DNA of 27,496 nt from a virus. The translations under genes were made by a program, and so were the position numbers. The stretch is from positions 1 to 27,496 of IMG/VR virus record IMGVR_UViG_3300042389_000480, one strand, 5' to 3'. Position 1 is the stretch's first letter; every line of letters begins with the position of its first letter. The notes under the pieces were generated by a model. That model searched no databases, was not told where the DNA came from, and saw only the letters and a program-made list of their open reading frames with translations. Positions 1 to 22,129 of this stretch are shown here, in pieces.

Positions 1-66
1 GATGGTGCGCCCGATCAACTCAACCTTGTCGCTGGTCATGCCAGCCTTCACGATTTCAGACTTCAT
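1..66 (-). CDS. RecT/Bet-like single-strand annealing protein (N-terminal fragment)
   Basis: Only the first 22 codons are present; the gene runs off the left edge. The ATG at 66 overlaps the end of the upstream exonuclease gene by 11 bases and is preceded by GGGAG about seven bases away, the same arrangement as at the exonuclease start. The readable peptide ends with DKVELIGRTI. Bet/RecT-type annealing proteins often start with a stretch of the form 'Q-V-E-L-I-x-R-T-I' before the conserved 'KGATDDEL' segment, which would lie just outside. Such proteins anneal single strands produced by a partner 5'-3' exonuclease, and the adjacent gene is exactly such an exonuclease. The family call rests on a short match plus gene context. 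Another ssDNA-binding or recombination protein is possible. Confidence 0.55.
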   Translation of the reverse strand, partial: MKSEIVKAGMTSDKVELIGRTI

Positions 67-919
67 TGAACTCTCCCAAGTTCTGTGCGATGCGAGCAGC
101 AGCCCACGCTGGGATGCCGATCTCGGTAACACCTTCGTAACCACGCGGACCCTCCGCAAGATAAGCCTTGTACTGCGCGACGAGTTCCAGCATCCGGGGG
201 CGGAACGCCTCCGCGATCTCGTCGCTGAACCGATAGACGGCGGTCGCATACGGCGCGGTCTTCTCGACCACCACGAACACGAAGTGCTGCGCCGGAACGC
301 CGCACGCTCGCGCCATCTCCAAGTAGAACGCGCATTGCACGCCGTACCCGAAGTTCCAGATCGTGCGCTCAAACTCCGACTTCGATGCGCTCGACGCGGT
401 GGTCTTCACATCGACGATGATGCGCTCGCCGTTGACCTCGACCAGCCTGTCGAAGCGCGACTTGGCACGCACGCCAGCGATCTCCGCAAACAGCGAGACC
501 TCGGCGCTGCCGTTCAGGTCGGACACCACCATGCGTGCGTCCGGGTTGGCGGCAATCGCAGCAGCCATCGCCGACACCTCCTCGGCTTGGTCGGCGGTCA
601 GCACGGTCTTGCTGCCGACCGAGGCAACGAACGACTCGTAGGTCGCCTTGCCTTCCTTGGTGCGGCGGTCAACGGCAGGGGCCACCACAAAGTCACGCAA
701 ATACAGGTGAGGTGTCAGCACCTTGCAATGCAGGGCGCGACCGACGGCAAGCGCCGGGGAATCAGACGGGTTCGCGATGCTGTGAGCCAGATGCAACGAG
801 GTGCTGCGATCAAGAATCCGCAGCCGCGAAGCAGACATGGCATCGAATGAGTGATAGATTGAATCAGGCAGATCCCGCTCGATGTGGGGAAGCGCCGGGG
901 GTGTGAATCGTTCAAGCAT
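56..919 (-). CDS. PD-(D/E)XK exonuclease, RecE/Exo VIII C-terminal type
   Basis: This 287-aa protein is probably a 5'-3' dsDNA exonuclease that resects ends for phage recombination. The nuclease core is readable: RFD with Asp157, then IVDVKTT with Asp170 and Lys172 (the D-x-K of the fold), then Q195-x3-Tyr199 in VQCAFY, the QxxxY motif of RecB/Exo VIII-like nucleases. Glu140 and Glu145 lie in the strand before the core. The N-terminal part (YHSFDAMSASRLRIL, then ALAVGRALH) matches the helical start of the RecE-like family. The ATG at 919 is chosen because GGGAG sits about six bases upstream; an in-frame TTG at 970 would add 17 unlikely residues and lies in the upstream gene's stop region. It follows the ribbon-helix-helix gene after a hairpin and overlaps the annealing-protein gene, forming an exonuclease/annealase pair. 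The family is well supported; strand polarity is inferred from the family. Confidence 0.88.
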   Translation of the reverse strand: MLERFTPPALPHIERDLPDSIYHSFDAMSASRLRILDRSTSLHLAHSIANPSDSPALAVGRALHCKVLTPHLYLRDFVVAPAVDRRTKEGKATYESFVASVGSKTVLTADQAEEVSAMAAAIAANPDARMVVSDLNGSAEVSLFAEIAGVRAKSRFDRLVEVNGERIIVDVKTTASSASKSEFERTIWNFGYGVQCAFYLEMARACGVPAQHFVFVVVEKTAPYATAVYRFSDEIAEAFRPRMLELVAQYKAYLAEGPRGYEGVTEIGIPAWAAARIAQNLGEFNEV

Positions 920-934
920 TGGTCTCTCCCAAAC

Positions 935-961
935 CGCCGTGTGGTCTTCGGACCCACGGCG
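935..961 (-). terminator. Strong hairpin between the RHH gene and the exonuclease gene
   Basis: An inverted repeat starts five bases after the ribbon-helix-helix stop codon. It has an 11-bp stem (7 bp, one bulged base, then 4 bp) closed by a four-base loop that reads CGAA in the minus-strand transcript and TTCG on the plus strand. The minus-strand side is followed by GTTTGGG, so there is no uridine run and it is a poor intrinsic terminator in that direction. On the plus strand it is followed by TTTCTT, which is better suited to stopping antisense transcription. In the minus-strand message it could attenuate or protect the mRNA ahead of the exonuclease ribosome-binding site. The structure is certain as sequence; its role is inferred. 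Confidence 0.5.
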
Positions 962-966
962 TTTCT

Positions 967-1155
967 TCAAACGTAGGGGCGTTCAGACTCTTCCGCTGGC
1001 TGCGGCAGTTCGTGCGCGTACCGATCCAGCAGCAGATCGATCAGCGCACATTGGGTCCAGCGACCAGCCTCCGCGTAGCGCTCAATGCGGCGCTTCGTGG
1101 CGGCTTTGATCGTCAGCGTGGCGTGTCGCCGTGGCTTCTGGGTGTCAGTTTCCAT
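967..1155 (-). CDS. Small ribbon-helix-helix (Arc/CopG-type) DNA-binding protein
   Basis: This 62-aa basic protein has a short charged N-terminus, then RRHATLTIKAATKRRIERYAEAGRWTQCALIDLLLDRYAHEL. That is a single strand with alternating residues (ATLTIKA) followed by two helices, the pattern of ribbon-helix-helix repressors that bind DNA as dimers through the beta ribbon. The start at 1155 has an excellent Shine-Dalgarno (GAAAGGAG, about six bases upstream); the longer in-frame reading to 1215 is rejected because it would run over this signal. It is the first gene after a promoter whose -10 overlaps a short palindrome, and it precedes the recombination genes, so autoregulation of this operon is a reasonable inference. 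The target site is unproven. Confidence 0.78.
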   Translation of the reverse strand: METDTQKPRRHATLTIKAATKRRIERYAEAGRWTQCALIDLLLDRYAHELPQPAEESERPYV

Positions 1156-1222: not shown

Positions 1223-4200
1223 CTACTGCTGCAATTGTTTCTCGCGACGCTCCTGCGCCAGCCTGATGCGTTCCCGAGCAGCCAGCACGTTCAACCGCTG
1301 GCGCTGCTTCGGCGTAAGTTCGCCAGCCTTATCCAACTTTCGGTAGTACTCCAGCAACTTGCGGTCGCTCGGCTTGGCCTTCGCGGCCACGCCCGTGACG
1401 GTGGATACAGGCGCAACCACAGGAACACCAGCCAGTTGCAGCGTCGTTTCTGACAGGCTTGGCAAGTCTCCCTGCGCGAGATACTTGGAAGTGTCTCCGA
1501 GGAAACGGATTACGAGCGGCTCCAGCACATCGTCGGCACGCTCGGGACTTCCAATAGCGCCATCGACAATTGCACCCCCGGCCATGCCGAGGTAGCCAAA
1601 CACCGCCGATGCCGCGTCGCCAGCGACCCGTGACGGCAGATACCCCATTTCCTGTTCCATCGCCATGCGACGGATCATGTCCTCGTCCTCTTCGTCGCCG
1701 CCGCCTCCGAGCGCGTTGGCGATGGCGATGCCAGCCGCCGTCCACAGCGGATTGACCGCAGCGGCCAGAGCGATGTTGCTCGACACCCCTGCTGCCGTCT
1801 TGGCAATCAACGCAGGATCGCGGCTTGCGACGGCACGGCGAATCTGGTTGTAGCCCTTGAGCGGGTCGCTGCTGAACGGGAACATCAGCCGACCGATGCC
1901 CTGCGAGAACTTCTGCTGGGCAGCAAAGACCGTGTCATCGAGCGGGTCGCTAACGTTCTGCGTCTTGCGGAATGCCTGTTCGGCCATCTTTGCCGCACCG
2001 ACATCAAGTTCCGCATTGGTCATCGACGGGTTTCGTGCGGCGAGATCGGCACGCATACCGATGAACGCGGCCAGCATGATCTGCCTGTCGATCATGCGAA
2101 GCATTCCGTCAGCGCTCTTCAGAACCCGGCTGATCGGCAGCACGCCTTCGCGTAGATCACGCACCGAACGAGCGAACTTGCCCGCCGCCACGCTTTCCCC
2201 GACCGAGGCGAGAGAACGAGCCGACGATGCCAGCGACGCTGCCCACCTGTCGCGTGCCGTGTTCGGGTCTCCAAGCACGTTCGCGAAGATGCCGACTTGG
2301 CTGCGACGGTGTCGGTCATAGAAGTACCCGTTGATAGATTCGACGGCCCGAGCCATGTCCCGGCGCTGCGCCGGGGTCATCGTCGCCATCCGAGCAACGC
2401 CCTTCGACCACGCCCCAACTGGCATTTCGCTCGCGAGCCGGAACGCACCGCCCAACTGCCGAAGCCAAGTCTTGGGGTTGAGGGTGATGAGAGCGCCGCT
2501 CACGTTGGCATTCAGCCCCTCGATGAATCCGCCCTGCGGCTTTCCAGACAGGCCAACGCCATTCAGAACCAACTTCCTGATCGCGTCGTTGCCGCCCTCT
2601 CCCATCGTCGCCTCGATTCCGCTGCGGACGCGAGCGGACTTCAGGACAGACATCGCATACCGAAGCGGGAGAGACAGATGAATCAGCCGCAACGACTCGT
2701 CGAGGTGGCTGTCCATCGTCCGCATCATGCCGCCGACAACCATCGTGGACTTCGCGGCGACGCGCTGCTGGAGGAACCCGGCGTTCGACAGCATGGTGTT
2801 CATCACCATGTTCGGCTGCATATTCGGGTCGATTGTCTGCCCAGCAATCTCGTCGCCGAGTCGCTGGCGCGGGAAGTACCCCGGAACGATGTCAGGCTGG
2901 CGACCGTGAATCTGGAAGTGAATGTCGAAGGCGCGAGGCTGGATCTCCTGCTCCAAGATCGCCTTCATCTCGTCAATCAATCTGCGCTGCCCATCGGTCA
3001 GGCTGGTTCTGATGTCCGCGAATTCCCGCCGCGTCATGTAGATCGGCGTGGCATTGCGGTCGGTCGAGAACACGATTGGCGCTCCGAGCGTTCCGGTCGG
3101 ATCCGAATCGTCGGTCAGCAGGGCCACCGTCTGATCATCCATCGCAGCCAGATGCAGCATCTGGTCAACGGTGATCGTCATCGGATTTCCGCCAAGGCTG
3201 ACCGTCACGGTCTCGGCAGACGATTCGCCGTACAACCCAGCGGCATTCGTCGCATATCCGTCATAGCCCGAATACCCGGCTGACCGAAGCGCCGCGTCGA
3301 TTCGCTCGTCGATGCGCTTGCGGTCGAGCGTCATGTTGCCCTTTGCCTCGGCGAACCCGGCCCACATCTTCCCGAGTACACCGCCAGCCCCGCCCTCGAT
3401 GGCTTGCATCAGGGTGTAGATGTCGGAGTTGCCGATGGTTGACAGGATGTCGCGGATGATGTTTCTCCTCGGAGCCATCGAGGAGATGCGGCCACGCTCG
3501 ACCTTGGGCAATGATGCAAGCGACGATCCAAGCGCGGACGCATCCGCAGCCGCTTCGTCCGCTCTGGCATCGCGTGCATCCCTGTATTCCGCACGCTCGA
3601 CATCGAATCGCTGCATGGCCGATTCCAGAAGAGCCTGTGCGCTTGCGGTTCGGGCGGCAATGTCTGCCGTATCCGTGAACGGGAGCATCCGCTTTCGTCC
3701 TGCGGCGAGCATCGATCTCGCGGATGACAGCGCCGACAACAGGTCAGACCGCGTTTCCGCACGCAGCCCGACCTTTCTCACGCGCTTGTCCATCCTGTTG
3801 ATCGCGGCCACCGTTTCGATGGCTTCCGCCATCGCAAGATCCTGAACGACACGGCGGGCGATCTTGTTGATTCCGGCGGCGGTCTTCATCGTCGCAACGG
3901 CATTGACATACTTGCCTCGCAACTTGATCGGAAGCGTCGCGATGACCTCGACAGCGGCCTTCCGCAGATCGGTCATGCGTGCCTTGGCTTCTTCGATCCC
4001 TTCCTTTCGACCGACGGCACGGCCCTTGTACAGACCCTTGATCCACGCCTTCAGGATCTGCGACTGCGCCTTCTCCGCAGCCTTCTTGCGTCCTGCACGC
4101 TCATACTTACGCATGACCTTGATGCGGTTGCGAAGTTCGTCGTTCGTTTCCGCTGCGGCTTCGATGTCGAGCATCAGGCCAGCGACGCGGTCTCGGAACG

Positions 4201-7200
4201 CAGCACGCATCTTCATGCGCTTTGCCAGCGCCTCGACACGCTGCTTGTTCCGTTCCTCGCGCACAAGCCGTTCAGCCTCGCGCTTTGCGGCACGCCGCTC
4301 TGCCTTCTGACCTCGGACCTCACCGGACAGAAGACCTTCGCGGCGACCCATGCCGTATGCAAAACGAACACGGCGTTCGGACTTTCCTTCCGCAACGCGG
4401 CGGCGAGCCGACAGCGTGGTCACCGTGACTGCATACGATGGCGTGTATGGCTGACCGCGCTTGTCCTCAAACGAGACATTCGTAAACCCACGGTTGTAAA
4501 GAACGCGAACAAACTGTCCTGATTCGTCAATTTGCTTCTGTGACGAAATTGCAACCATGCGCTTCGCCATTTCTGCGAAGTCCTTGATTGCCGCAGCCTT
4601 GGTCTTTCCGAACTTCTTCCCATCAAGCGTTGTCGTACTTCCCCAAGACGGGAAAACCGTCGGCGTGTACATCGGGCCGTAATCAACAGAGTTGGTGCTG
4701 AAGCCATCTGACATTCCGCCGATGACAGTCCACTCACCATCGTCGAATGCAACCCTCAAATCAACAGCGATGTCGTTCTTGTCGAACAAGACAACCTTCG
4801 CTGGCTGATCTCTGTTTCCGACAGGCGTGATGCCGTCGAGAGTCACACCCGGCAACTTGAATGTCAGAATGAAAGTGCCATCTTCACGCTTCAGCACATT
4901 GGTCAAACCACCAACAACCGGGAAGCCTTCAAGCGTCAACGCCTTCTGTTTCGGAGCAGTAGTTTCTCCGGGTACTGCGGCTCGTCGCGGAGCCTGACCG
5001 ATGGCTGCAACGATGTCTGTCCGAGCCATCTCCTCGGTCAGATTCATCAAGTCATCGAGCATCGACATCGGCACGGTGTCATCAATGCCGAGGAACCGAC
5101 GAAGCGCCTGCATCAGGCGGCTGAACATCGACCCAACGCCTCGTCCCTTGCTCGGAATAGCGCGAAGAATGTTCTGGAACTTTGGGCTGTTGATCGCTTC
5201 TGCGACAAACTCATCCAGATTCCCAAAGGCGTACAACCCACCAGCGTCTGCCATTGCATCGCCGCTGTTACTCTTGTTGACCAGACCACCGCCGTCGTAA
5301 TTTCTTCGTTCCGTAAATCCATCCAGCGGTATCTGGCTTCCGTTTGCGCGGCGAACGGAGAATCTCGGATTTGCTCCACTCAAATCCGTTGTCATTACAA
5401 CTCTGTTGAGTTCATCAAGCAGTACTGGTTCTCTGTTTGTAAGTTTGTTCTTTGTCTGCTCAAGAACCTGTTGATTTTGCGCTCCACGGCGTGAAAGCAC
5501 ATAATCGATACCGTTCTTTGTCAACACCAATTCAACTTGCGGAACACCATCAATACTGGTGGCTCGGATTGACAAGTCGCCAGAACCATCAAACGTAATT
5601 CCGCCAAACGATGACCTTCCCTTCGTCATCAGGTTGTACTGATGCGGGTTTGCCTTCGCTGCCTCCAAGAAACAATCAACCAATTCCTTGAACGCCGGGT
5701 CAACATCTGGGTCGGTCGAATACCTTTCAAGATTCTCGATGTACTTGATTCCAGACACATTCGACAACTGCCAACGCTTGGCAACCTTCATTCCGAGGTC
5801 GCTGTAGCGCTGATGCCCAGACTCCTTCACCTTCTTGTCGGTGTACTTATCGACATAACTGGCGATGCGAAGCGATGTTGCGGCGTGCATCATTTCATGC
5901 GCGAACACCAGACCGCCGTCATTTCGCTTTGTGATTGTCCCGCTGGTTCCATCACCACTCTGCATCGACACCGGAAGTTGATTGTCTTGCAACTCAATGC
6001 TGCCGCGATTGCCATCTCGGTAACTTGACCAGTTGGCACGAACGCGCTTGTAGGTATCAACGCGCACGCTTTCGGACAGGTCGAGTACGCGACCGAATTC
6101 CTTGTCCTCCGATGTGCGATCCTTGACCCTGTGCAACCCAACGGTTGCCTTTACGACATCCTGAAGCGCGACAAGGATGTCGGCGAACTTCGCGCCTTCG
6201 GCGACGAATGCTTCTGTGATTTCCTTGGTGGTGTCGCCGCGAAGGCGAGCCGACAGGACGCTCCCGACGCGACCTTCTTCCCAAGTCCACGACGGCATCA
6301 GCCCAACCTTCTGATCAGCGAAGATCGTGTCTTCAACCTTCGCGTCGCGGTTCTTCTCGCCGAACGGGCCGAAGTTCAGCCAACTGTTCTGGCCGCGAGT
6401 CTCCGAGGTCATCGCCCCGATAGCCGCTCCGGTGAACAGGCGCACATGGGCTTGCCATGCGTTCTCCTCGCCACGCGCCCGGAAGCCAGCGCCCTCAAGG
6501 CTGTGGCCCATCGCGTCGTGGACGGCGCGGAACAGGTCATTGGCGGTCACCCGCTTGAGTGGACCGCCGGGGCGACCGAATGCCCATTGCAGCCCGGTGT
6601 CAACGAGCAAGGGGTTGTTGCTGACATCGAGGTCCGTCGCACCGCTGCCGAACCCGCTCTCCGTCGGGAACACCGCCATGCGCCTGTTCGCACGCAGATC
6701 GCGCACGGCGTTGTACGGGTTGCCGAATCCACCCGGCTGGTCGGCGTATGGGTCATTGTCCAGATCGACGAAGTAGAACTCGTAGCCAGCCTCAACCAGC
6801 GCGTCATACTGCGCGGAGGTCTGCTCGATGAGTTGCCTGTACGCCTCGGCGACCGCAGGGTTCTGCGGATCGTGGGCCATCTTGTCGTATGCGTCGGCGA
6901 TGCGCCGCGCACGCTCGATGTCTACATCTGCGTACTCGGATTGACGCTTGAGTTCGATCCCTCGGGAAGCGGCATAGCGCTCGGCGACGGCGACGATGAC
7001 CGGGTCGGGGCCAGTGAACCCTCGGATGACAGGCGCTCCTGCAAGCGCATCAAGCGCTCCAGCCGAAGGCTGTTCCACTCGGTCGCGAGGCGCTCCTCCT
7101 CGTCGGGCAGCAAGGGTTGACCACCCGTATCGGGCATCGAACCGCTGGTTGACGGATTGGATACGGGAACGAAGATCTCTGACCCCTCCGAGTAGATCGG

Positions 7201-10200
7201 GCTTGAGGGACTCGATTTGCGCCAAGTAACTTTCGCCATTTGGATTCTCGCTCCAATCGTTGCCGATGTAGTTGCCTTCGGATCGGAAGGATTCAAGTTC
7301 AACAGTACCACCACCGAAGTCCTTGGGCAACTGCTCGATGACCTCTTTCAGCCCATCGTGGAACTTCTTGTTCGGAATGTCCGTGAAGTTCAACACGCGA
7401 GCGCCATCATTCCGATAGCCCGGTGCAAGTTCCGTGGTGTTGAACTTCTTCTGTAGCGCTGCGTAAAGCGCCGTCATCTCCGCTCGATTCAGCGGACGTT
7501 GCGTGTAAATCTGCACGCCGTTGTGGCGGATCTTCGCATCGTCCCAGATTGGGGCGTGATAAACGACGGAGTCCTGCTCCATCACGAAGCCGCGCACAAG
7601 TGCGGCAAGGTTGAGCAACTGCTTCGCTTCCGGCGTGAAGGTTCGCTTCGCGCCAGCGCCCTTCAACGGGACCGGGACGAACGTCTGCGCTCCAGCGCCG
7701 ATCTTGCCCATCCATGCGCTGAACCCGGTGATCGTGGTTCCCTGCGGCAACCCAACGAGGTCGGCGATGACATCGCGCCCGTTGACGTACAGGACATCCA
7801 TGATCTCCTTGAGATATTCAAACTGTTGCTGAATTGGAGCGCTGTGAATTCCCGGAAGCGAACGCCCCGTGGCGGTGCTTGGGGTCGCTTCCCAAGACAT
7901 CTGAACCATGCGGTCATTGATAGCGTTGCTGAAGTCGTACTTGCTGGCCGCGATGTCTTCCTGACGAAGCGTGTGCATCATGCCCATCTTGTGGGCAAGT
8001 CGGAAGTGGTCGTACTCGCGACCCTTCTTGATGCGATACACCTCGGTCTGCTTGCCCGTCTTCTCGTCGATCTTCGTGACCATCTCGCCGATGCCGCGAC
8101 GCAGTTCTCTCTTCTTGAGGTCGGCGCGAATCGGATCGATGCGGCCCTTCATCGCGGTCCAGATCGCCGCCTGAACCTGATGCGGCTTCCATCCGAGTTC
8201 TTCGGCAAGCCGACGAATCTCGTTCTCCGCAAAGACATACTTCGGTCCCTGATCGAGCGCCTTGTCTCCGTAGTCGAAGGCAAGAGCCATCCACATATCC
8301 ATCGTCGCCACGCCCGGATCGAGTTTGGACGGATCGATCTCGACCATCAGGTTCTGGTAGAACGAGTTCGTCTTGATGCCGCTCCAAGCCTTGCCGTTGA
8401 CAAGAAGATCAGTCGCCTTCTCGTCTGCCTTGGAGAATCCTGCGTTGATCGGAACGCCAGCCTTCCATTGGTAGTAGGCGGTCAGCGCCATCGAAGTGTT
8501 CGCCGGAACCGTGGCGTTCGGCGAGTAAATGGCGATGAGCGAAACGATCTTCTCCGCTTCGTCAATGTCTCCGTTGGCTGCGGCAAGAATTGCCTTGCTG
8601 GAGTTCTCGTACCACATCCGGCCAGCCTCGCCCTCCGTCGCGAGTTGCCTCAACTTGGCACGCAACTTCTGCAACTTGACAGGAGACTTGCCGACCCACT
8701 TCGGCGCTCCTACGAATCGACCCGACTTCTTCTCTCGCTTCTGCTCGACCGTTGCGGCGGGGCCACGCGCACGCGCCCACAGGACCGCATAGTCCTTGCC
8801 GAACTGCGAGGTCATTTCGGCTCGCAGTTCTTCGCCGATCTTGCGGTCTTCCGGCGACAACGCAGCCGGGTCGCGCTCCATCTGCTCCGCGATGGGATAC
8901 AGCCGCTTGCCTTCCGCCCACTTCTTGTCGGTCTTGCGAAGGGCGTTCACGGCGAGGTTGACCATCGCCTTGAAGTCAGGAGTCTTGGCGGCAGCAGCCT
9001 CTGCCGGGGTCATGCCGCTCGCCGTCACCGCCGCAGCCGAAGCCGACGGCGGGACGGGAGCAGCCGTCGGCGCTGCCGCAGCGGCAGCAGGGGCAGCAGC
9101 CGGGGTTGGCTTGGCCGGGGCCGCAGGAGCCGTCGGCGGCTGTTCCAGCATTTGCTGGCCGCGAAGCACGCCCTTCGCCTCCTCGATCCGCTGGCCGAAT
9201 TCCGTAAGCGCCACTTGCCGAGTTCCGCGCTTGGCTGGTCGCGGCTGGCGCTGCTTTGCTGCTTCCAGCAACATCGAGCGAACCCGCAACGCCGTCGTTG
9301 CCTGACGGCCACGCAGGCCCATCTTCACGATCAACTGCCCAAGGAAACCCGGAGCCTTTCCGGTTCGGAACAATTCCCGAACCCCATCTTCCATCACTCG
9401 CGCCTGTCCCTCGGCTTCAAGCAAAGTGCGCCCAGCACGCTGCTCGATCATCTCGCCTTGCCGCATGGGCATGGTCTGGACACCAGCGACCTGTTGAGCC
9501 ATTGACGCGGCGGCACTCTGGGCAAGCCTGTCATCCTTACGAAGTTTGTTGTTGAAGTATTCAACGCCAGCCTCAACGACGCTTTGCTCGTCGAACGCAT
9601 TCCGAAGCGCCATGTACAGGTCGGTATCAGTCGCCTGCACGATGTGCATCACTTCGTGGTGCGCGAACACAAGCGCATCGATCATCTGCTCATTCGTCAT
9701 TCCCGACTTCAGAAACACCGTGTTCGGCGCGGACGGGCTGTAAAACGCAGGATCCGCGTCAGGATCGGTGGAGTCAAAGAACGAGATGTCGTAACCAAGC
9801 GCCTTGATCTGCTCTTCAGCCGCACGATCAGAGGCCGTCTGCGCCATCGAAGGTGTCAACTTGAGTTCCGACAGAACTTCAGTGGTGTTCTTCTCGATGA
9901 CCGGGGCGTTGCGGGCGTTGAATGCAGAAATCGTGATGACCCGCGTTCTTGCCGACAGCAACTCCGCAGCGAGCGTCGCCTGATTCGCGACAGCATTGTC
10001 GAGAGCGGACTTCGCAGCATCGACATTCTTCTGTGCTTCAGCCGTCTTTGCCGCATCGTTCTTCTTCGCGACAGCCTGCAACTTCTTCTGCGACTGCTCA
10101 AGCGCAGCGGCAGCGTCGTTGACCAGCCTCGCCCCGACCTGTCGGTCGGCATTTGCTTGGTGATATGCTGACGAAGCGGACTGCAATTCGACTTCCCGCT

Positions 10201-11353
10201 GCTGCGGGGTCATCGCCTTGAGCGCGTCAACCGTCGCACGCGGCATCGAATCCCAGAAATTCGGGTCGGAGAACGCGCCATTGGACTGCCGAACAGCGTC
10301 GGAAATTCTCTGACGCATCACCTTGGCTTGCGAAGCCTCGCTGGCCGCGATGAAAGGGTGTGCGCCCGCACCGCCGAAACCACCGTAGAACGCATCGGTC
10401 AAAGCCTCGGTGATCGCAGTTCCGAATTCCGGCGCTTCCTCGCCTTGCAACCTCCGTGTCGCGCTGTATGCAAGCGATGCTGCGCCTTCCTCTGCCGCCT
10501 CCGATCCATATGCAAGACCAAGTCCCGTCGAGAACTTCATCGCCGGGTTCATGTTCTTCATCGCCTTGACCGCCTCGCGGCCCCACACGGTCTTCGCGAT
10601 CTTGACAGCGGCCTTTGCGCCAACCCATTCCGTCGCAGCCTCGATCACACCACCCTTGACGGCGGCGATGTACTTGCCGCTCGGTCGGTAGATCCCGTCC
10701 TTGCTGGTCAACTTGCCTTCGACAAATGCGTTGTCGTACTCGTTCGCAGCACCACCAGCGCCTTGGAAGAAGAACGCAGGAGCGGCAATCTGGGGCGCTA
10801 CGACCGCAAGTCCGATGTTCGCAACGCCGTTCGTGACGGCAGCGGCGACCTTGTCCGTGAACGTGTCCGACACGACGGCAGAGGTCGTAGCCATGCCACG
10901 GGCAAATCCCTCGACCTGACCAAGTGGATCGATGCGATCAGGCGTGACCATCTCCAAAGTCGTGGCAGCACCACGGACGGTCGCGGCGGTCATGCCGGAA
11001 AGCGTTCGACCGACAGTATCCCTGACCCCACCAGCCTGCTGGCGCTCGATGTCACGCGACACGAACACTTGCTCTAGCAACTGCGCTTCACCCGGAGTAC
11101 CAAAGATCTTGGCATAGACGGAAGCAAGCGCCTCTCCGAAGCGCTGCGCCCCGAACGGAGTCAGGCCAGCAGACGCAACGCGGCCAGCAAATTCGCCAGC
11201 CTCTTCCGCCGCTCCAGCGCCCGGAAGTTGCTCTTGCCTTTGCTCTCGACCGATTTCAGACGCGATGTCTTGATACCGCGAAACACCGAAGTTCGGGTAT
11301 TCCTTCTTGATGTCAAGCGACTTCGCAAGGTCGAGATACTTGCTGTCAGCCAT
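1223..11353 (-). CDS. Giant multidomain internal virion (ejection/polyvalent) protein, 3376 aa
   Basis: Probably a DNA-ejection protein packaged in the virion. Approximate layout: 1-350 Ala/Gly-rich with hydrophobic stretches (about 165-205); 390-470 coiled coil; metallopeptidase-like domain with H566-E-V-M-H570; Pro/Ala linker 735-775; phage domain 900-1070 around W914; domain with H1612-D-A-M-G-H1617 and E1651-TRGQNSW; second metallopeptidase with H1819-E-M-M-H1823 and a downstream DEFVAEA near 2046; basic coiled coil 2315-2450; C-terminal 3150-3376 with hydrophobic segments and a charged tail. The ATG at 11353 follows the previous stop by 10 bases with GGA at spacing about six; longer in-frame starts overlap the upstream gene. 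No lysozyme or transglycosylase domain was recognised. T7 gp16, the analogue by position, is 1318 aa, so this is unusually long. Reading frame certain; role inferred from position and from polyvalent-protein architecture. Confidence 0.85.
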   Translation of the reverse strand: MADSKYLDLAKSLDIKKEYPNFGVSRYQDIASEIGREQRQEQLPGAGAAEEAGEFAGRVASAGLTPFGAQRFGEALASVYAKIFGTPGEAQLLEQVFVSRDIERQQAGGVRDTVGRTLSGMTAATVRGAATTLEMVTPDRIDPLGQVEGFARGMATTSAVVSDTFTDKVAAAVTNGVANIGLAVVAPQIAAPAFFFQGAGGAANEYDNAFVEGKLTSKDGIYRPSGKYIAAVKGGVIEAATEWVGAKAAVKIAKTVWGREAVKAMKNMNPAMKFSTGLGLAYGSEAAEEGAASLAYSATRRLQGEEAPEFGTAITEALTDAFYGGFGGAGAHPFIAASEASQAKVMRQRISDAVRQSNGAFSDPNFWDSMPRATVDALKAMTPQQREVELQSASSAYHQANADRQVGARLVNDAAAALEQSQKKLQAVAKKNDAAKTAEAQKNVDAAKSALDNAVANQATLAAELLSARTRVITISAFNARNAPVIEKNTTEVLSELKLTPSMAQTASDRAAEEQIKALGYDISFFDSTDPDADPAFYSPSAPNTVFLKSGMTNEQMIDALVFAHHEVMHIVQATDTDLYMALRNAFDEQSVVEAGVEYFNNKLRKDDRLAQSAAASMAQQVAGVQTMPMRQGEMIEQRAGRTLLEAEGQARVMEDGVRELFRTGKAPGFLGQLIVKMGLRGRQATTALRVRSMLLEAAKQRQPRPAKRGTRQVALTEFGQRIEEAKGVLRGQQMLEQPPTAPAAPAKPTPAAAPAAAAAAPTAAPVPPSASAAAVTASGMTPAEAAAAKTPDFKAMVNLAVNALRKTDKKWAEGKRLYPIAEQMERDPAALSPEDRKIGEELRAEMTSQFGKDYAVLWARARGPAATVEQKREKKSGRFVGAPKWVGKSPVKLQKLRAKLRQLATEGEAGRMWYENSSKAILAAANGDIDEAEKIVSLIAIYSPNATVPANTSMALTAYYQWKAGVPINAGFSKADEKATDLLVNGKAWSGIKTNSFYQNLMVEIDPSKLDPGVATMDMWMALAFDYGDKALDQGPKYVFAENEIRRLAEELGWKPHQVQAAIWTAMKGRIDPIRADLKKRELRRGIGEMVTKIDEKTGKQTEVYRIKKGREYDHFRLAHKMGMMHTLRQEDIAASKYDFSNAINDRMVQMSWEATPSTATGRSLPGIHSAPIQQQFEYLKEIMDVLYVNGRDVIADLVGLPQGTTITGFSAWMGKIGAGAQTFVPVPLKGAGAKRTFTPEAKQLLNLAALVRGFVMEQDSVVYHAPIWDDAKIRHNGVQIYTQRPLNRAEMTALYAALQKKFNTTELAPGYRNDGARVLNFTDIPNKKFHDGLKEVIEQLPKDFGGGTVELESFRSEGNYIGNDWSENPNGESYLAQIESLKPDLLGGVRDLRSRIQSVNQRFDARYGWSTLAARRGGAPRDRVEQPSAGALDALAGAPVIRGFTGPDPVIVAVAERYAASRGIELKRQSEYADVDIERARRIADAYDKMAHDPQNPAVAEAYRQLIEQTSAQYDALVEAGYEFYFVDLDNDPYADQPGGFGNPYNAVRDLRANRRMAVFPTESGFGSGATDLDVSNNPLLVDTGLQWAFGRPGGPLKRVTANDLFRAVHDAMGHSLEGAGFRARGEENAWQAHVRLFTGAAIGAMTSETRGQNSWLNFGPFGEKNRDAKVEDTIFADQKVGLMPSWTWEEGRVGSVLSARLRGDTTKEITEAFVAEGAKFADILVALQDVVKATVGLHRVKDRTSEDKEFGRVLDLSESVRVDTYKRVRANWSSYRDGNRGSIELQDNQLPVSMQSGDGTSGTITKRNDGGLVFAHEMMHAATSLRIASYVDKYTDKKVKESGHQRYSDLGMKVAKRWQLSNVSGIKYIENLERYSTDPDVDPAFKELVDCFLEAAKANPHQYNLMTKGRSSFGGITFDGSGDLSIRATSIDGVPQVELVLTKNGIDYVLSRRGAQNQQVLEQTKNKLTNREPVLLDELNRVVMTTDLSGANPRFSVRRANGSQIPLDGFTERRNYDGGGLVNKSNSGDAMADAGGLYAFGNLDEFVAEAINSPKFQNILRAIPSKGRGVGSMFSRLMQALRRFLGIDDTVPMSMLDDLMNLTEEMARTDIVAAIGQAPRRAAVPGETTAPKQKALTLEGFPVVGGLTNVLKREDGTFILTFKLPGVTLDGITPVGNRDQPAKVVLFDKNDIAVDLRVAFDDGEWTVIGGMSDGFSTNSVDYGPMYTPTVFPSWGSTTTLDGKKFGKTKAAAIKDFAEMAKRMVAISSQKQIDESGQFVRVLYNRGFTNVSFEDKRGQPYTPSYAVTVTTLSARRRVAEGKSERRVRFAYGMGRREGLLSGEVRGQKAERRAAKREAERLVREERNKQRVEALAKRMKMRAAFRDRVAGLMLDIEAAAETNDELRNRIKVMRKYERAGRKKAAEKAQSQILKAWIKGLYKGRAVGRKEGIEEAKARMTDLRKAAVEVIATLPIKLRGKYVNAVATMKTAAGINKIARRVVQDLAMAEAIETVAAINRMDKRVRKVGLRAETRSDLLSALSSARSMLAAGRKRMLPFTDTADIAARTASAQALLESAMQRFDVERAEYRDARDARADEAAADASALGSSLASLPKVERGRISSMAPRRNIIRDILSTIGNSDIYTLMQAIEGGAGGVLGKMWAGFAEAKGNMTLDRKRIDERIDAALRSAGYSGYDGYATNAAGLYGESSAETVTVSLGGNPMTITVDQMLHLAAMDDQTVALLTDDSDPTGTLGAPIVFSTDRNATPIYMTRREFADIRTSLTDGQRRLIDEMKAILEQEIQPRAFDIHFQIHGRQPDIVPGYFPRQRLGDEIAGQTIDPNMQPNMVMNTMLSNAGFLQQRVAAKSTMVVGGMMRTMDSHLDESLRLIHLSLPLRYAMSVLKSARVRSGIEATMGEGGNDAIRKLVLNGVGLSGKPQGGFIEGLNANVSGALITLNPKTWLRQLGGAFRLASEMPVGAWSKGVARMATMTPAQRRDMARAVESINGYFYDRHRRSQVGIFANVLGDPNTARDRWAASLASSARSLASVGESVAAGKFARSVRDLREGVLPISRVLKSADGMLRMIDRQIMLAAFIGMRADLAARNPSMTNAELDVGAAKMAEQAFRKTQNVSDPLDDTVFAAQQKFSQGIGRLMFPFSSDPLKGYNQIRRAVASRDPALIAKTAAGVSSNIALAAAVNPLWTAAGIAIANALGGGGDEEDEDMIRRMAMEQEMGYLPSRVAGDAASAVFGYLGMAGGAIVDGAIGSPERADDVLEPLVIRFLGDTSKYLAQGDLPSLSETTLQLAGVPVVAPVSTVTGVAAKAKPSDRKLLEYYRKLDKAGELTPKQRQRLNVLAARERIRLAQERREKQLQQ

Positions 11354-11363
11354 GTTGTGTCCG

Positions 11364-12809
11364 TTACCTATTGGAAAGATCGAAGATGACCTGTGCAGCA
11401 CGCCGGATCGCAGCCTTCTGTTCCGGCGTGTAAATCGTCGATGCCTCAAGCCTTGCTGGATCTGAAGCAAGTTCCATGATGCGCCTCATCGCGGTCCTGT
11501 CATCTTCGGTCGAATTGACCTTGACATAACCGATTGCCTCCGCGATGGCCGCGTCTGGATTCTCCGACTGCTCCTGTGGCCGTGGTTCATCTTCCTGCGG
11601 CGCGGTTCCATATCGAACCGCATCACGGGCGGAAGCGGCCTCGTTTGCCATCTGCTGGCGCTGAATCGAAACCGGAACCGTTCTGGTCGGAGGAGGTGTC
11701 ACCTTGCTCGCAAGACCCTGCGAGTTGTTCGCGATGTCCAGCGCATCGATGATCGCCGACAGGCCGACCTCATCGGTAGCGACAACCTGATCCCAGCCAA
11801 GCCTCTGGCTGACCATGTTGAAGTTGTTGAGGAAGTTCGTGACCTCTGCGAGGTTGTACTGCCCGTCCTGACCACGGCGCGGCAGCGTCGCTGGCTGCGG
11901 AAGCGGGGTCATCATCGGCTTGGTCATCGCATGGAACAGGTTGACAAGCGGAAGCGGACCAGCGTTCTGCGAGGCAAGGCTGTCGATCAGCGTCGCTGTG
12001 CTGGGGATCTCGTATTCCGACGGCTTGCGGCGAAGCGACCGAATGTTCTCGATCATCGGCGCTGCATACGGCTGGTCTTCATATGCCTTCATCGCAGAAT
12101 CGAACGCACGTTCGCCCTGCTCATACTCGTCCTGTTCCATCTTGATCGCCTGCTGCGCGAACTTGACGGGAACGGGCTTGCCGCGCCACACGACCGTTTC
12201 CGCGTCTTGCTTCATCTGCTGGCGCTGAAACTCGCCGAGTTGCTGCATCGCCAACTGCGGATCCATCTGGTACATGGCTGCGAGATAGCCACCGATGTCC
12301 GGGTCGTTGGTCGCGGTGATCTGCTTTGCCATCGAGTTGAAATACGGCTTGAACGCCTCCCGCTTCGCGACCATGTCTCGTTCGCGGTTCAATTCCATGC
12401 GAGCCTTCGACCTGAACTCCATCGCCCCAAGCCACTGTGGAGTGGTCAGGCGAATCACTTGACGTTGATTGTCCTCGTCGAGAAACGACACCGCTGGAGT
12501 GCCGTCGGCAAGAGCGCCGAAATCGAGCATCTCTAGACCTTCATAATCGCCGTTCTCGATTCCGTTCACCGCTGCTGCGAACGATGGCTGTCGAACATTC
12601 GCCGGATTGCCGATGTACTGCGACTTGTCCTTGTCCGCGTACTTGATCAGGTCTCGGAACTCGACAGGCAGATCCTCTTCGCGAACGCCCTGCTCGTACT
12701 GCGCCTCCAAGGTCATCGGCCTCATGTTCTGAAACGACGTACCCGGCTTCACTTCCATCGTCGTAACGGCGTTTGGAAATCGAGATTGCGGAGTCTGGAA
12801 CTGGCTCAT
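11364..12809 (-). CDS. Probable internal virion protein, 481 aa
   Basis: This 481-aa soluble, Gln/Met-rich protein has no recognised catalytic motif. The middle third (about 130-260) is predicted from composition to be mostly helical with many charged residues, followed by a Pro-rich stretch (MTPLPQPATLPRR) and an acidic low-complexity segment near 405-425, then a helical C-terminus. Its ATG overlaps the stop of the upstream gene as ATGA at 12809-12806, indicating coupled translation, and the giant ejection-protein gene starts 10 bases after its stop. By position it corresponds to the middle internal core protein (gp15-like) of T7-type phages, but I see no direct sequence resemblance. The assignment rests on gene order, so it could be another virion-associated protein. 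Confidence 0.6.
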   Translation of the reverse strand: MSQFQTPQSRFPNAVTTMEVKPGTSFQNMRPMTLEAQYEQGVREEDLPVEFRDLIKYADKDKSQYIGNPANVRQPSFAAAVNGIENGDYEGLEMLDFGALADGTPAVSFLDEDNQRQVIRLTTPQWLGAMEFRSKARMELNRERDMVAKREAFKPYFNSMAKQITATNDPDIGGYLAAMYQMDPQLAMQQLGEFQRQQMKQDAETVVWRGKPVPVKFAQQAIKMEQDEYEQGERAFDSAMKAYEDQPYAAPMIENIRSLRRKPSEYEIPSTATLIDSLASQNAGPLPLVNLFHAMTKPMMTPLPQPATLPRRGQDGQYNLAEVTNFLNNFNMVSQRLGWDQVVATDEVGLSAIIDALDIANNSQGLASKVTPPPTRTVPVSIQRQQMANEAASARDAVRYGTAPQEDEPRPQEQSENPDAAIAEAIGYVKVNSTEDDRTAMRRIMELASDPARLEASTIYTPEQKAAIRRAAQVIFDLSNR

Positions 12810-13330
12810 CGCTGGCCTCCGACACCGTTGCGGATGCCGAACATGATGCGGGCGGCTTCCGACGAGGCGAGACCCTGCTGGGCGATGAACATCTTCCCGG
12901 CAGGGTTGAGTTCAGACACCCCGATGGTCAGTTCCCCGCGATCCTCGCGTACCTCCTTGTCCTTCTGCGTTCCCTTCTTGATCCCACGGAACGAGTCGAG
13001 CAGTTCCTGTTCTCGCTTGCGATCCTCGTCCAACTTCGCCTGATACTCCTCCATCCGCAGCATCTGGCTCATCCGCTCGCGGTCAACACCCATCTGGGTT
13101 TGCGCTGCTTCCGCACCGATGGCGGATCCGCCGAGAAGGCTCATGCCAGCACCCTTGAACGGATTGCGGAGATCGGTATTGGCAAGACCCTGCCCGATGC
13201 CCTGCGCCATGCCCTGACCCGCGTACATGAAGAACCTTCCGAGGTTGCCGAGGTACGTCTGGTCGCGCTTGGCGTTGACCGCCTGCTGACCCATGATCCC
13301 GGCACGCGCCATGATTCCTTCTAGTGCCAT
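12806..13330 (-). CDS. Small probable internal virion protein, 174 aa
   Basis: This 174-aa protein begins MALEGIMARAG and has a Gly/Met-rich first half (FFMYAGQGMAQGIGQGLA) that looks weakly membrane-active, a strongly charged helical middle (RMEEYQAKLDEDRKREQELLDSF), and a C-terminal part ending MFGIRNGVGGQR. The ATG at 13330 has AAGGA seven bases upstream and lies 10 bases after the previous stop; an earlier in-frame start would overlap that gene. It ends in an ATGA overlap with the 481-aa gene. Gene order places it among the ejection proteins. I do not recognise a family. Confidence 0.55.
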   Translation of the reverse strand: MALEGIMARAGIMGQQAVNAKRDQTYLGNLGRFFMYAGQGMAQGIGQGLANTDLRNPFKGAGMSLLGGSAIGAEAAQTQMGVDRERMSQMLRMEEYQAKLDEDRKREQELLDSFRGIKKGTQKDKEVREDRGELTIGVSELNPAGKMFIAQQGLASSEAARIMFGIRNGVGGQR

Positions 13331-13340
13331 GTGGTGTTCC

Positions 13341-14327
13341 TTATCCAAGTCCTGCGGAGAATCCTCGTCCCGCAAGGTAGGGTTGGTACATATTCATCAG
13401 ACCTGACGCGATTCCGGTGGTTGCGCCACCGACGATTGCAGCCGCCGTTTGATAGCCGCTTCCTGCGTATTGCGCCTGCGCTTCCTTTCCGCCGAGAACA
13501 CGGGCAACGCGCTCTCGCTCCAGATTCATCTGGGCGTTCAGGAAGTCCGCGCTGATGCCAAGACGCTGACGGGCAACATCCTCGCGCTGCGCGAACTCGG
13601 TTCCAAGCAGTTGCTGCCGCATCGCCAAACCGCCGCCGACACGGGCTTGCTGCATCTGGGTCAGGTTCGCAAGGCGCTGCTGCTCCAGCGAAGACGTACC
13701 GCTGACCAGTGCCTGCTCGATTCCCGCCAACTGGCTGGCGTATTGCTCCTCGACAACGCCCTTCTGGAGCGCCCCCTGCGACTCTTCGGCTGCAAGAACG
13801 CCCTGACCAAACGTCGTTCCGGCCAGCCCGGTGAACGCCTGCGCCTGCGACATTCTCGCAAGGTTGCGTGAAGTTGCCTGTTCGATGGCCGCAAGCGTAT
13901 TGGTTCGGCCAACCCCGGCAATGCGCTTGACCTCACCCATTCCCTCTCGGAACTGCGAGGTGATGCCCTGCGCCTGCTGGTTGTAGGCGGTTTCCAGTTC
14001 CTTGAACCGGGTATCGAAGTCGCCGATCAACTGCTCGTATCCGCCCTTGTACTGCGACAGGTTGGAAGTCCTGTTCTCAAGGAACGACTTCAGGATCTTG
14101 TCCTGCTGTTCCTGCTGGTACTTGCCGAGATCCTGATACTGCCCACCAGCCCATTCGGTCATGGTTCGGAATGCACGCTGCTTGGAGTCAGCCGCTTGCT
14201 TGGCAAGAATGCCAGAGGCAATCGAGCCAACGCCCATTGCCACTCCTCCAACAGCGAGACCCGTGCCGATTGCGGCTGCTGCGGTCGCTCCGATTCCGAT
14301 TGCTGCTCCTGCTCCGATGAATGACAT
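13341..14327 (-). CDS. Gly/Ala-rich coiled-coil internal virion protein (gp14-like), 328 aa
   Basis: The N-terminal 45 residues are a long Gly/Ala-rich hydrophobic segment (MSFIGAGAAIGIGATAAAAI onward), able to form a membrane hairpin. They are followed by about 230 residues of Gln/Glu/Ala-rich sequence with coiled-coil character, and a short hydrophobic Gly-rich C-terminus. This layout is typical of phage internal virion proteins of the T7 gp14 type, which leave the capsid first and form a pore in the host outer membrane. The ATG at 14327 is separated from the upstream stop by one base and has GGAG seven bases upstream. The following genes are a small protein, a 481-aa protein and the giant, matching a gp14-gp15-gp16 order. 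The assignment is by composition and order rather than by specific motif. Confidence 0.68.
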   Translation of the reverse strand: MSFIGAGAAIGIGATAAAAIGTGLAVGGVAMGVGSIASGILAKQAADSKQRAFRTMTEWAGGQYQDLGKYQQEQQDKILKSFLENRTSNLSQYKGGYEQLIGDFDTRFKELETAYNQQAQGITSQFREGMGEVKRIAGVGRTNTLAAIEQATSRNLARMSQAQAFTGLAGTTFGQGVLAAEESQGALQKGVVEEQYASQLAGIEQALVSGTSSLEQQRLANLTQMQQARVGGGLAMRQQLLGTEFAQREDVARQRLGISADFLNAQMNLERERVARVLGGKEAQAQYAGSGYQTAAAIVGGATTGIASGLMNMYQPYLAGRGFSAGLG

Positions 14328-14328
14328 A

Positions 14329-15144
14329 TCAGTTCTCCGTGTCGATGGCGTAGGCGACCAGACCACTGATCCTGTAATCGACCGTGATCTCCTCGCCGTT
14401 CTCGATCTTTCGCGTCGCGATCATGTCCGCATGATCATCGATCCCTGTCTGGACGAACTTCGCATTCGGATCGTGCGAGTGGTTAGTGAACCGACCAGCA
14501 ATGCACCTCTTGCCGTTCCGTCGAGCCGGGGCAATGATTTCTCCGTCGGCGATGGTTCTGTTGGCGAACACACCAATGCCATGAATCGGCGACATACCCA
14601 TCGTCATGTTCCTGACACAGGCATCGGTCTCCACAAGATCATCGGTTTTCCTCATGTGGGAATCGATGAATCCGAGCGGAAGACCGAACTGACGCACGAA
14701 ATTGTTGTAATCAGAACGAGCCTTGCTTGCCCAATCGAACTCGATGCCATTTCGGCGAGTCTGCAAGATCGCAGATTCGTCGGTCATGGCATCCTCGGCA
14801 TCTTCGACCGTCTTCGCGTCGGTGTGAATGATCGTTGTCCAGTAGGTATCTCCGTGCGCGTACCCGACGCGCTTGTACCCCTTGGACGCTGGAAGCACAT
14901 GAAAGCCGATGAGTCGCTGCATCCCGTTGTCCGTGGTGACGGTGATGTCGCCGCTTACGACGCACACGTTGTCCAACTTGGTCAGCGTTCCGGTCACTGC
15001 CGTGCCAGCCGGAATGAAGATCGTCCGTGCATACATCGACCCATGCATCAGGCTTGATGTCTGCATATCGACTTGCGGCATCGCCATCAGCGCGGCCTCA
15101 AACCGACGAATACGGTCGATCTCAATCTGTGTTTCAGGAGACAT
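14329..15144 (-). CDS. Cupin-SET domain fusion protein, 271 aa
   Basis: Two domains can be read. Residues about 38-112 form a cupin-like beta barrel (ARTIFIPAGTAVTG, VCVVSGDITV, then KRVGYAHGDTYWTTIIHTD), a fold often seen in small phage proteins beside tail genes. Residues about 180-260 are a SET domain: HGIGVFA at 188-194 (the GxG start motif), RFTNHSHDPNA at 218-228 (RFxNHSxxPN, which binds S-adenosylmethionine and forms the pseudoknot), and GEEITVDYR at 250-258 (ExxxDY with the catalytic-region tyrosine). SET proteins transfer methyl groups to lysine. The usual Cys after NHS is His here and no post-SET cysteines are visible. The ATG at 15144 has a strong AGGAGGA nine bases upstream and overlaps the tail gene by 11 bases. 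Activity and substrate are unknown; a virion protein could be the target. Confidence 0.8.
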   Translation of the reverse strand: MSPETQIEIDRIRRFEAALMAMPQVDMQTSSLMHGSMYARTIFIPAGTAVTGTLTKLDNVCVVSGDITVTTDNGMQRLIGFHVLPASKGYKRVGYAHGDTYWTTIIHTDAKTVEDAEDAMTDESAILQTRRNGIEFDWASKARSDYNNFVRQFGLPLGFIDSHMRKTDDLVETDACVRNMTMGMSPIHGIGVFANRTIADGEIIAPARRNGKRCIAGRFTNHSHDPNAKFVQTGIDDHADMIATRKIENGEEITVDYRISGLVAYAIDTEN

Positions 15145-17269: not shown

Positions 17270-18528
17270 TATGAAATTCGCGTCCACAAAGTGACCGTAC
17301 CAGTTGGCGAATTTGAATCCGTTGCTTGAACAAACCCAAGTGATCTCCACACGGATCCTGCACCCCCGAGCAGTGAGCCAGAACCAAATGCAGTAGACGT
17401 ATAAAAAATCTGGTTATTTATTGCAATTAGTTTTGCAGTACCCGTATTGGTTGATGCTGGCTGTGTAAGTGTCCCTCCACCCGCCACAGGCGATGCAGCA
17501 TTTTGATATTCGCCAGAAAGTACAAAACTGCCAACGCCCGCATATGTCTGCATACTTGCAGCCGAAGGAACTCCAAGCGTCGTTCTCTGCGCCGTCGCAT
17601 CTGCATCATCAAGCAGCGCACGACCCGCTGCGGTGCAAGTGATTTCTTCAATGTCCCCAGCGCCTGCGCTGCTGCGTCCAAGTACACGATCCGTGGCTGT
17701 GACATTCTGAATCTTCGCATACGTCACTGCATCATTAGCGATTCCAGCCGTCGCAATCGTTCCGAATCCAACTGCTGTTCCGCTACGACGCAGTACTTCT
17801 GCATCGTTTGCGGCATTGATTTCAGCAAAGTCCCCAGCACTGTTTGCGGAGCGACCAATGACGGACAGTCCCGCCGCAGCACTGTTCTGAATCTTCGTAA
17901 ACGTAACGGCATCGTCAGCGATCTTTACCGTGGTAACCGCCACATCACGGATGTGGTTAGTCGTGACGGCGCGGTTCGCATCGGTTGAAGCATCGTCAGC
18001 CAACTTTGCAGCCGTAACTGCATCATCAGCAATCTTCACCGTCGTGATCTCGCCGTCCGAGATGTGCGCCGTGCTAGACCAGTTCGTCCACGCCGTTCCG
18101 TTCCAGAGCCTGACCCACTGACGAAGATCGGAACCGCTGCTGCTGTACTGCGTCAGCAACTGCTGGACATGGGTCGTGAGCGACGGATATGCGTGGGTCG
18201 TGACGATCAGGGTGGAGACCGAGTCGGCATCGACCGTCGATCCGAAGTCGGTCGGCACGTTCGTGAACGTCGATCCGCCGGGAGTTATGCTGTTCAGCCG
18301 ATACCGACCCATCACGCGATAGCGGGTGCTGTTCAGGTCGAGATCGACGGCAGGATTCACGGACACGTTCGGGAACTGGTAGTACGCAAGGTTCTGCCAC
18401 TGCGTCGCTCCGTCGCCGATCTTCAGGTTCCCGGTGTCGGTCTCATAGCCGAACTCACCAGACGCAAGCACGGTGGTGCTTCCCCAGTTCGCGGCAAGGT
18501 CTCGTCGGATTTGGATCTTGACTGACAT
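17269..18528 (-). CDS. Tail fibre with tropism-determinant-like N-terminus, 419 aa
   Basis: Residues 1-51 (KIQIRRDLAANW, VLASGEFGYETDTGNLKIGDGATQWQNL) match the small beta domain found at the N-terminus of Mtd-like and other phage receptor-binding proteins, which attaches the fibre to the tail. Residues about 155-320 are low-complexity repeats with recurring KIADDAVT and KIQN...GRS.SAGD..EI units, typical of a trimeric triangular beta stalk. The C-terminal 90 residues are a different, less repetitive domain that may contact the receptor. The ATG at 18528 shares bases with the lipoprotein stop (TAATG) and has AGGAG eight bases upstream. Bases 17401-17460, coding for the C-terminal domain, contain 20 G+C in 60 (33%), far below the surroundings. 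Fibre identity is well supported; receptor is unknown. Confidence 0.8.
   Translation of the reverse strand: MSVKIQIRRDLAANWGSTTVLASGEFGYETDTGNLKIGDGATQWQNLAYYQFPNVSVNPAVDLDLNSTRYRVMGRYRLNSITPGGSTFTNVPTDFGSTVDADSVSTLIVTTHAYPSLTTHVQQLLTQYSSSGSDLRQWVRLWNGTAWTNWSSTAHISDGEITTVKIADDAVTAAKLADDASTDANRAVTTNHIRDVAVTTVKIADDAVTFTKIQNSAAAGLSVIGRSANSAGDFAEINAANDAEVLRRSGTAVGFGTIATAGIANDAVTYAKIQNVTATDRVLGRSSAGAGDIEEITCTAAGRALLDDADATAQRTTLGVPSAASMQTYAGVGSFVLSGEYQNAASPVAGGGTLTQPASTNTGTAKLIAINNQIFYTSTAFGSGSLLGGAGSVWRSLGFVQATDSNSPTGTVTLWTRIS
17690..18050 (-). repeat. Degenerate tandem coding repeats in the fibre stalk
   Basis: The stalk contains repeated peptides: TTVKIADDAVTAAKLADDA, TTVKIADDAVTFTKIQNSAA and NDAVTYAKIQNVTA, and two copies of a block KIQN...(V)(I/L)GRS-SAGD-EI about 60 residues apart. 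At DNA level the shared core is GCATCATCAGC or GCATCGTCAGC on the plus strand, recurring several times. Such repeats make stalk length changeable by recombination. Boundaries are approximate. Confidence 0.55.
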
Positions 18529-21326: not shown

Positions 21327-21329
21327 GGA

Positions 21330-22127: not shown

Positions 22128-22129
22128 GG

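Follow-up and report, generated by a model that had tools for sequence, protein, structure and literature searches.

A single open reading frame in the stretch of viral DNA studied here (27 496 bases in all, referred to as the window) raises the question of what a protein of such a size does, and of why several seemingly unrelated domains have been joined in it. The frame, the giant polyvalent protein gene P0001, runs from 1223 to 11353 on the minus strand and is open for 3376 codons. A first-pass annotation made from the window had proposed a 3376-residue protein, with no strand given, that is injected with the phage DNA and delivers several activities at once. The open frame was borne out, and it is a real gene, since homologues of 2700–3500 aa in independent contigs align over most of its length at 97, 81, 62, 48% identity and less; 17 relatives from IMG/VR were compared using BLAST and a table of modules. 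The motifs that had been listed were all found in place (HExxH at residues 566–570 and 1819–1823, HDxxGH at 1612–1617), and they are not due to chance because shuffled copies of the protein yield almost none (mean 0.010 HExxH and 0.002 HDxxGH). The annotation was in this way partly confirmed as an observation, with the frame, the motifs and the Pro/Ala linker standing and the membrane segments and the likeness of neighbours to gp14 and gp15 proving weaker. As an interpretation it was partly supported: several activities at the gp16 position fit, and the list of domains has been corrected. In our view the gene product is likely to be the final and largest of a podovirus's ejection proteins, and to be polyvalent, with a constant chassis and swappable cargo fenced by separator peptides that are probable cut sites. 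The layout of chassis and slot, the separators and the exchange within a bounded slot were not seen by the earlier reader, and they are the main feature of the giant protein.

In the order of transcription, the giant gene follows those for a portal, a scaffold-like protein, a capsid protein, tail proteins, an Mtd-like tail fibre and proteins of 738, 304, 341, 189 and 481 aa; it lies amid virion genes, with the portal, capsid and tail genes co-directional. From the 738-aa gene through the giant gene, the order is kept in relatives. This block, in which the following genes are all on the minus strand, starts with a tail-nozzle-like 738-aa protein (15134–17350), which is kept upstream in relatives and has no Pfam match, and goes on to a 341-aa protein with a Gly/Ala-rich hydrophobic N-terminus at the gp14 position (13341–14366), a Gly/Ala-rich 189-aa protein (12806–13375) and, at the gp15 position, a 481-aa protein (11364–12809). 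The two neighbours with a T7 counterpart by position, at gp14 and gp15, match no Pfam or PHROG family, so that only position and gene order remain of their reported gp14-like and gp15-like nature. The 304-aa protein (14329–15243) combines a tail-fibre-adhesin-like N-terminal part with a SET domain (PF00856, E 1.8e-11), a protein-methyltransferase-type domain that is unusual in a phage late gene, and it is also present in the relatives L002, L003 and L016. In podovirus ctQRb9, a 3209-aa protein is found at the same place as the giant protein, after a lysozyme-bearing protein at the gp15 position. Searches of Pfam, PHROGs and NCBIfam with the giant protein and its neighbours were negative for lysozyme, as had been noted, and the N-terminal transglycosylase of gp16-type ejection proteins is not universal in podoviruses (PMC8954989). 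The membrane segments that had been described correspond to hydrophobic stretches that are only moderate, the best 19-residue hydropathy windows being residues 177–195 (1.64) and 3194–3212 (1.72). Gene order supports, by position only, the reading of the product as a putative ejection protein. The similar size and position, the hydrophobic N-terminal stretch and the presence of an HExxH domain also recall an N4-like virion RNA polymerase; this identity is highly improbable, with no RNA polymerase match in Pfam or PHROG and with the best-modelled regions giving other folds.

Three parts of the protein are constant among the 17 relatives when compared by BLAST: residues 1–740 (25–100% identity), 862–1411 (45–100%) and 2319–3376 (29–98%). 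The domains and separators whose DNA coordinates are given below all lie on the minus strand. The N-terminal chassis (residues 1–479; 9917–11353) is 25–97% identical in relatives and has a hydrophobic stretch by hydropathy at about 169–198. It is followed by a zincin-like region defined by alignment (residues 480–740; 9134–9916), with the first HExxH at 566–570 (DNA 9644–9658) and a conserved Glu (EGxA) in LLEAEGQA at 646–648; the AF2 model of this region is of low confidence. A metallopeptidase-like site had been proposed here, and its motif stands, but it is not a constant protease because three relatives (L004, L007 and L009) lack the first His, reading EExxH with Glu in its place. L031 and L033 have no HExxH anywhere in the giant open reading frame. 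The Pro/Ala-rich linker seen earlier occupies residues ~741–790 (8972–9133), and the C-terminal chassis residues 2319–3376 (1226–4399). A link of this last part to LPD38 was looked for and none was found; L017 carries LPD38 on the same core as the window protein.

The central constant part contains the most conserved region of the giant protein, which is 71–98% identical in relatives. This is a DUF7178 domain (residues 892–1074; 8132–8680): the phage domain previously noticed around W914 is Pfam DUF7178 (E 8e-13), and W914 is invariant. It was modelled by AF2 together with the rest of residues 480–1411. The suggested Foldseek check of predicted structures, carried out on this model and on that of the HDxxGH-bearing (HD) module described below, returned no significant PDB match. 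VIA-align paired DUF7178 with OGG1 (Z 4–4.6) and, across 178 residues, with the archaeal AGOG glycosylase (Z 5.8). K994 and D1019 do not vary across six diverse sequences, among them solo proteins of actinophages at 23–27% identity, one of which is annotated as an N-glycosylase/DNA lyase; by their pattern, we take these two positions to be equivalent to the catalytic Lys and Asp of the HhH-GPD superfamily. A comparison with Nth/MutY by hhalign, using a profile of low diversity, was not significant, and for this reason an HhH-GPD-like DNA-glycosylase fold is regarded as probable and not proven. The neighbouring alpha/beta domain (residues 1089–1411; 7121–8089) has ferredoxin-like repeats and was modelled with a pLDDT of mostly 80–96. 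VIA-align matched it to RND porter domains (Z 9.1) and to phage SAM lyase (6znb; Z 6.5 over 122/125 residues), which is a known anti-restriction enzyme fold. The likeness to SAM lyase is a weak lead only, as the fold is a common one and the RND porter domains outscore the lyase.

Residues ~1412–2313 vary between relatives while the chassis stays conserved. In the window protein this part holds two modules, so that the HDxxGH site and the second HExxH site of the first-pass annotation, real as motifs, both turn out to lie in exchangeable cargo. The HD module (residues 1430–1699; 6257–7066), bearing HDxxGH at 1612–1617, is a phage-only unit of 270 aa that at least 308 viral contigs contain. Its identity is 64–95% between phages with little else in common, with invariant His, Glu, Arg and Asn residues, and its AF2 model has a pLDDT of 89. 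No PDB relative was retrieved by Foldseek or by sequence-profile search; there are 21 viral structural relatives, none with a tested function among the matches listed. On the chassis family of the window, the module is also carried by L005 and L031. More widely, this region (phrog_3170) is strongly conserved as a domain of giant polyvalent proteins (open reading frames of ~1500–5000 aa in L019 and L039–L118), and related domains are also found in smaller mycobacteriophage proteins. The HDxxGH motif with a Glu two helices on is reminiscent of the way in which aromatic amino acid hydroxylases hold their iron, and hhalign aligned eight columns; an assignment to these enzymes was rejected because the motif alone aligns. 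In the Foldseek list, 1ltu/1ltv stand at E >4.

The second cargo module (residues 1705–2313; 4415–6241) contains HExxH at 1819–1823 (DNA 5885–5899) and a conserved FGNLxEFxAE near 2043–2052. Its relatives are L016 and L119 only: both motifs are kept in the window and L016, and HExxH is kept in L119, which is without the core and the HD module yet has this module and the C-terminal chassis. A first tblastn scan with the module alone gave no match, and modelling of the two cargo modules together was abandoned because the mixed alignment misplaced L016. No match was obtained from a PDB sequence search with the profiles of HD, DUF7178, the second HExxH module and the C-terminal part, from a search of an anti-defence library, or, for domains of the published polyvalent network in the window protein, from Pfam at E 10.

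The closest comparison is with L002, which matches the window at 95.8% and 98.0% DNA identity on the two sides of the cargo, and in which the second HExxH module is replaced by other modules, ART-PolyVal among them (Pfam). Of the 10 relatives scanned with Pfam, 8 have ART-PolyVal in their cargo slot, with at least one such domain in L002, L003, L004, L005, L009, L015 and L017. Alignment showed residues 1412–2313 to behave as a cargo slot that holds one to several predicted modules and differs even between near-identical phages. Over bases 1–21521, the window and L002 have two main non-alignable patches, the cargo (4418–6243) and the tip of the tail fibre (17270–17993), and therefore the putatively injected cargo appears to change like the receptor-binding tip. 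The latter patch is the C-terminal half of an Mtd_N-type tail fibre gene, and varies alongside the cargo between the two phages. With ART-PolyVal and, in one case, LPD38 carried by relatives on the same chassis, the giant protein probably belongs, as judged from sequence, to the phage polyvalent proteins. Several predicted activities in one protein at the gp16 position, and relatives with ART-PolyVal, both agree with the published concept of polyvalent proteins that enter with the DNA. It is unlikely that the protein is instead a large structural or ejection scaffold in which HExxH and HDxxGH are relics devoid of enzyme activity. The loss of the first His from HExxH-1 in three relatives and the lack of a PDB fold match for the HD module are in keeping with a scaffold, and against it stand the identity and invariant residues of the HD module across unrelated phages, the invariance of K994 and D1019 in distant solo proteins and the ART-PolyVal domains in sister cargo.

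Every cargo module of the window protein is bounded by a short peptide: LAARR (1414), LSARL (1700) or LSARR (2314). In full, separator 1 is TLAARRGG (residues 1413–1420; 7094–7117), separator 2 is VLSARLRG (1699–1706; 6236–6259) and separator 3 is TLSARRRV (2313–2320; 4394–4417). A separator-like VLWARARG precedes the core (857–864; 8762–8785), with equivalents in relatives that read VLFARSAK, LFARARR and, in L017, DIRYSLPPG. There are five separator peptides in L002 and four in L003, and a module common to these two relatives starts and stops at separators. Across 10 family members, the separator pattern occurs 20 times in cargo versus 1.7 expected, and 8 times outside it versus 8.8 expected; the strict LSARR pattern was tuned on the same family as was counted, and a general claim therefore rests on the counts of RYSPGR, a codon test, an unbiased scan and a permutation of HD-module flanks. 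The strict motif is also missing at some junctions, with variants such as SYARQ in L009. Among unrelated giant proteins, fetched via the HD module, PDIRYS, PDIRRS and NILYAR were found 15–40 residues after ART modules, and RYSPGR is present in 3–6 copies each in L063, L067, L077 and L078 versus 0.01–0.03 expected. When 90 giant open reading frames were scanned without bias for four-residue repeats, five proteins exceeded the shuffled range, four through separators (GYSI in L107; RYSPGR in L077, L067 and L078) and the fifth through an ART start that is repeated. HD-module flanks are more alike within than between proteins (permutation p 0.00015; some of the top pairs are plain local repeats). 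Further candidates were noted in L107, L110, L089, L104, L068 and L087 (GYSI, PMFSNRA, LQSR, MMSxR, FNQS and IDFSD), of which GYSI alone was significant in the unbiased scan.

Whether the separators matter as peptide or as DNA was addressed by their codons and breakpoints. The DNA homology between the window and L002 breaks off inside separator 2 and resumes at separator 3, again inside the peptide, and the window, L002 and L003 share CTGTCGGCTCGCC at the separator breakpoints. Codon identity between copies is above expectation in L002 (0.41 versus 0.24) and L067 (0.46 versus 0.27), which, for the window's family, fits recent exchange at separator joints. An exonuclease VIII-like PD-(D/E)XK protein is encoded beside the giant gene (56–970, minus strand), with RecT next to it in L002. 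In that relative, the nuclease and then RecT adjoin the giant gene at 21081–22451, a possible engine of module exchange. These features would all be expected if the separators were DNA recombination joints only, at which RecE/RecT-type annealing swaps modules and the peptide has no role. We regard this as rather improbable: L077 and L063 retain the peptide (identity 0.89–1.0, with 0.89 in L077) while codons differ about as codon usage predicts (codon identity 0.28 versus 0.25 expected in L077, 0.33 versus 0.26 in L063). Because copies keep the peptide with different codons, selection appears to act on the peptide, as it would for a processing site. A peptide role short of cleavage, as flexible or recognition linkers that aid threading, refolding or docking, carries a similarly modest probability. 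The giant protein must pass a narrow tail, and the domains of the N4 vRNAP are joined by long linkers, the polymerase being thought to unfold in ejection (PMC12633501); on the other hand, a linker would not call for a short sequence-specific peptide that is almost the same throughout one protein and differs from lineage to lineage.

Under the preferred reading of an ejection protein with fenced cargo, the giant protein would be packed in the head and would thread out last, through a channel of the smaller proteins at the gp14 and gp15 positions. Its hydrophobic ends may stay with the membrane as an anchor, and the core and cargo would enter the cytoplasm with the first DNA, where cargo modules could act on host or phage targets or on the incoming DNA before phage transcription. 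Cleavage of the chain to release the modules probably takes place at the separators, and module exchange is probably aided by the short DNA homology at separators together with the neighbouring exonuclease VIII/RecT pair. Cutting by the HExxH-1 zincin itself would not be general, because separators persist in L004, L007, L009, L031 and L033, none of which has an intact HExxH-1; another protease, or none, has to be considered. A broader and more tentative proposal, which we put at appreciably less than an even chance, is that giant polyvalent proteins are punctuated polyproteins with a lineage-specific peptide code (LSARR, RYSPGR, GYSI, IRRSxER) read by a protease. Were this so, a phage or host protease would free the effectors during packaging or after injection, and cargo cassettes would be exchanged between the marks as fast as receptor-binding tips. 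Polyvalent proteins are thought to be processed into units, and a repeated separator makes the place of cutting directly testable. With such separators, thousands of giant phage proteins can also be divided into modules even where no domain is known. The cargo slot points to the place at which phages may vary the effectors that they inject, and the HD module and the DUF7178 core represent widespread or strongly conserved putative early-infection domains.

Polyvalent proteins, their ART-PolyVal and zincin domains, their domain mosaicism and the concept of injection with DNA have been described, together with a proposed zincin cutting into units (Iyer et al. 2017; PMC5512222), and mosaicism of ejection proteins was also already known (PMC8954989). 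The window protein shares with the phage-type polyvalent proteins (PMC5512222) a large multidomain build, a place near late genes, zincin motifs, mosaicism and relatives with ART-PolyVal and LPD38, and it joins disparate predicted activities in two HExxH modules, a DUF7178 with a glycosylase-like fold and the HD module. Its family differs from them in having a constant chassis, one bounded slot, lineage-specific separators and a constant DUF7178, and in that self-processing by a zincin is not general. Linkers and glycosylases are not mentioned in the main text of PMC5512222, and the open-access literature yielded no report of a constant chassis that bears a single bounded slot, of separators that are repeated and specific to a lineage, or of a glycosylase-like DUF7178. 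Actinophage DUF7178/N-glycosylase-DNA lyase proteins are of the same Pfam family and have the same invariant Lys and Asp; they are solo proteins of ~195 aa, whereas the domain in the window is fused into a predicted ejection protein. Like T7 gp16, the giant protein is by position the product of the last and largest gene of an ejection block, but it is 2.5 times larger, and a transglycosylase domain was not found (Pfam, PHROG, NCBIfam); the likeness to T7 gp14/15/16 is one of gene order and size, without a family match of the neighbours. With N4 gp50 (PMC12633501) it shares a size of ~3500 aa, a putative role as an ejection protein, a hydrophobic N-terminal region, an HExxH domain and modules joined by linkers, and it differs in that no RNA polymerase was found and its cargo is variable. 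Among giant ejection proteins the N4 vRNAP is the best studied, and its packaging without being cut (PMC5512222) counts against the preferred reading. Polymorphic toxin systems (PMC3482391) likewise have a constant carrier whose effector domains are exchanged in a cassette-like manner. Unlike these toxins, the window protein has an internal slot in place of a variable C-terminal tip, and several modules in series with separators between them, and delivery by the virion would be a feature of its own.
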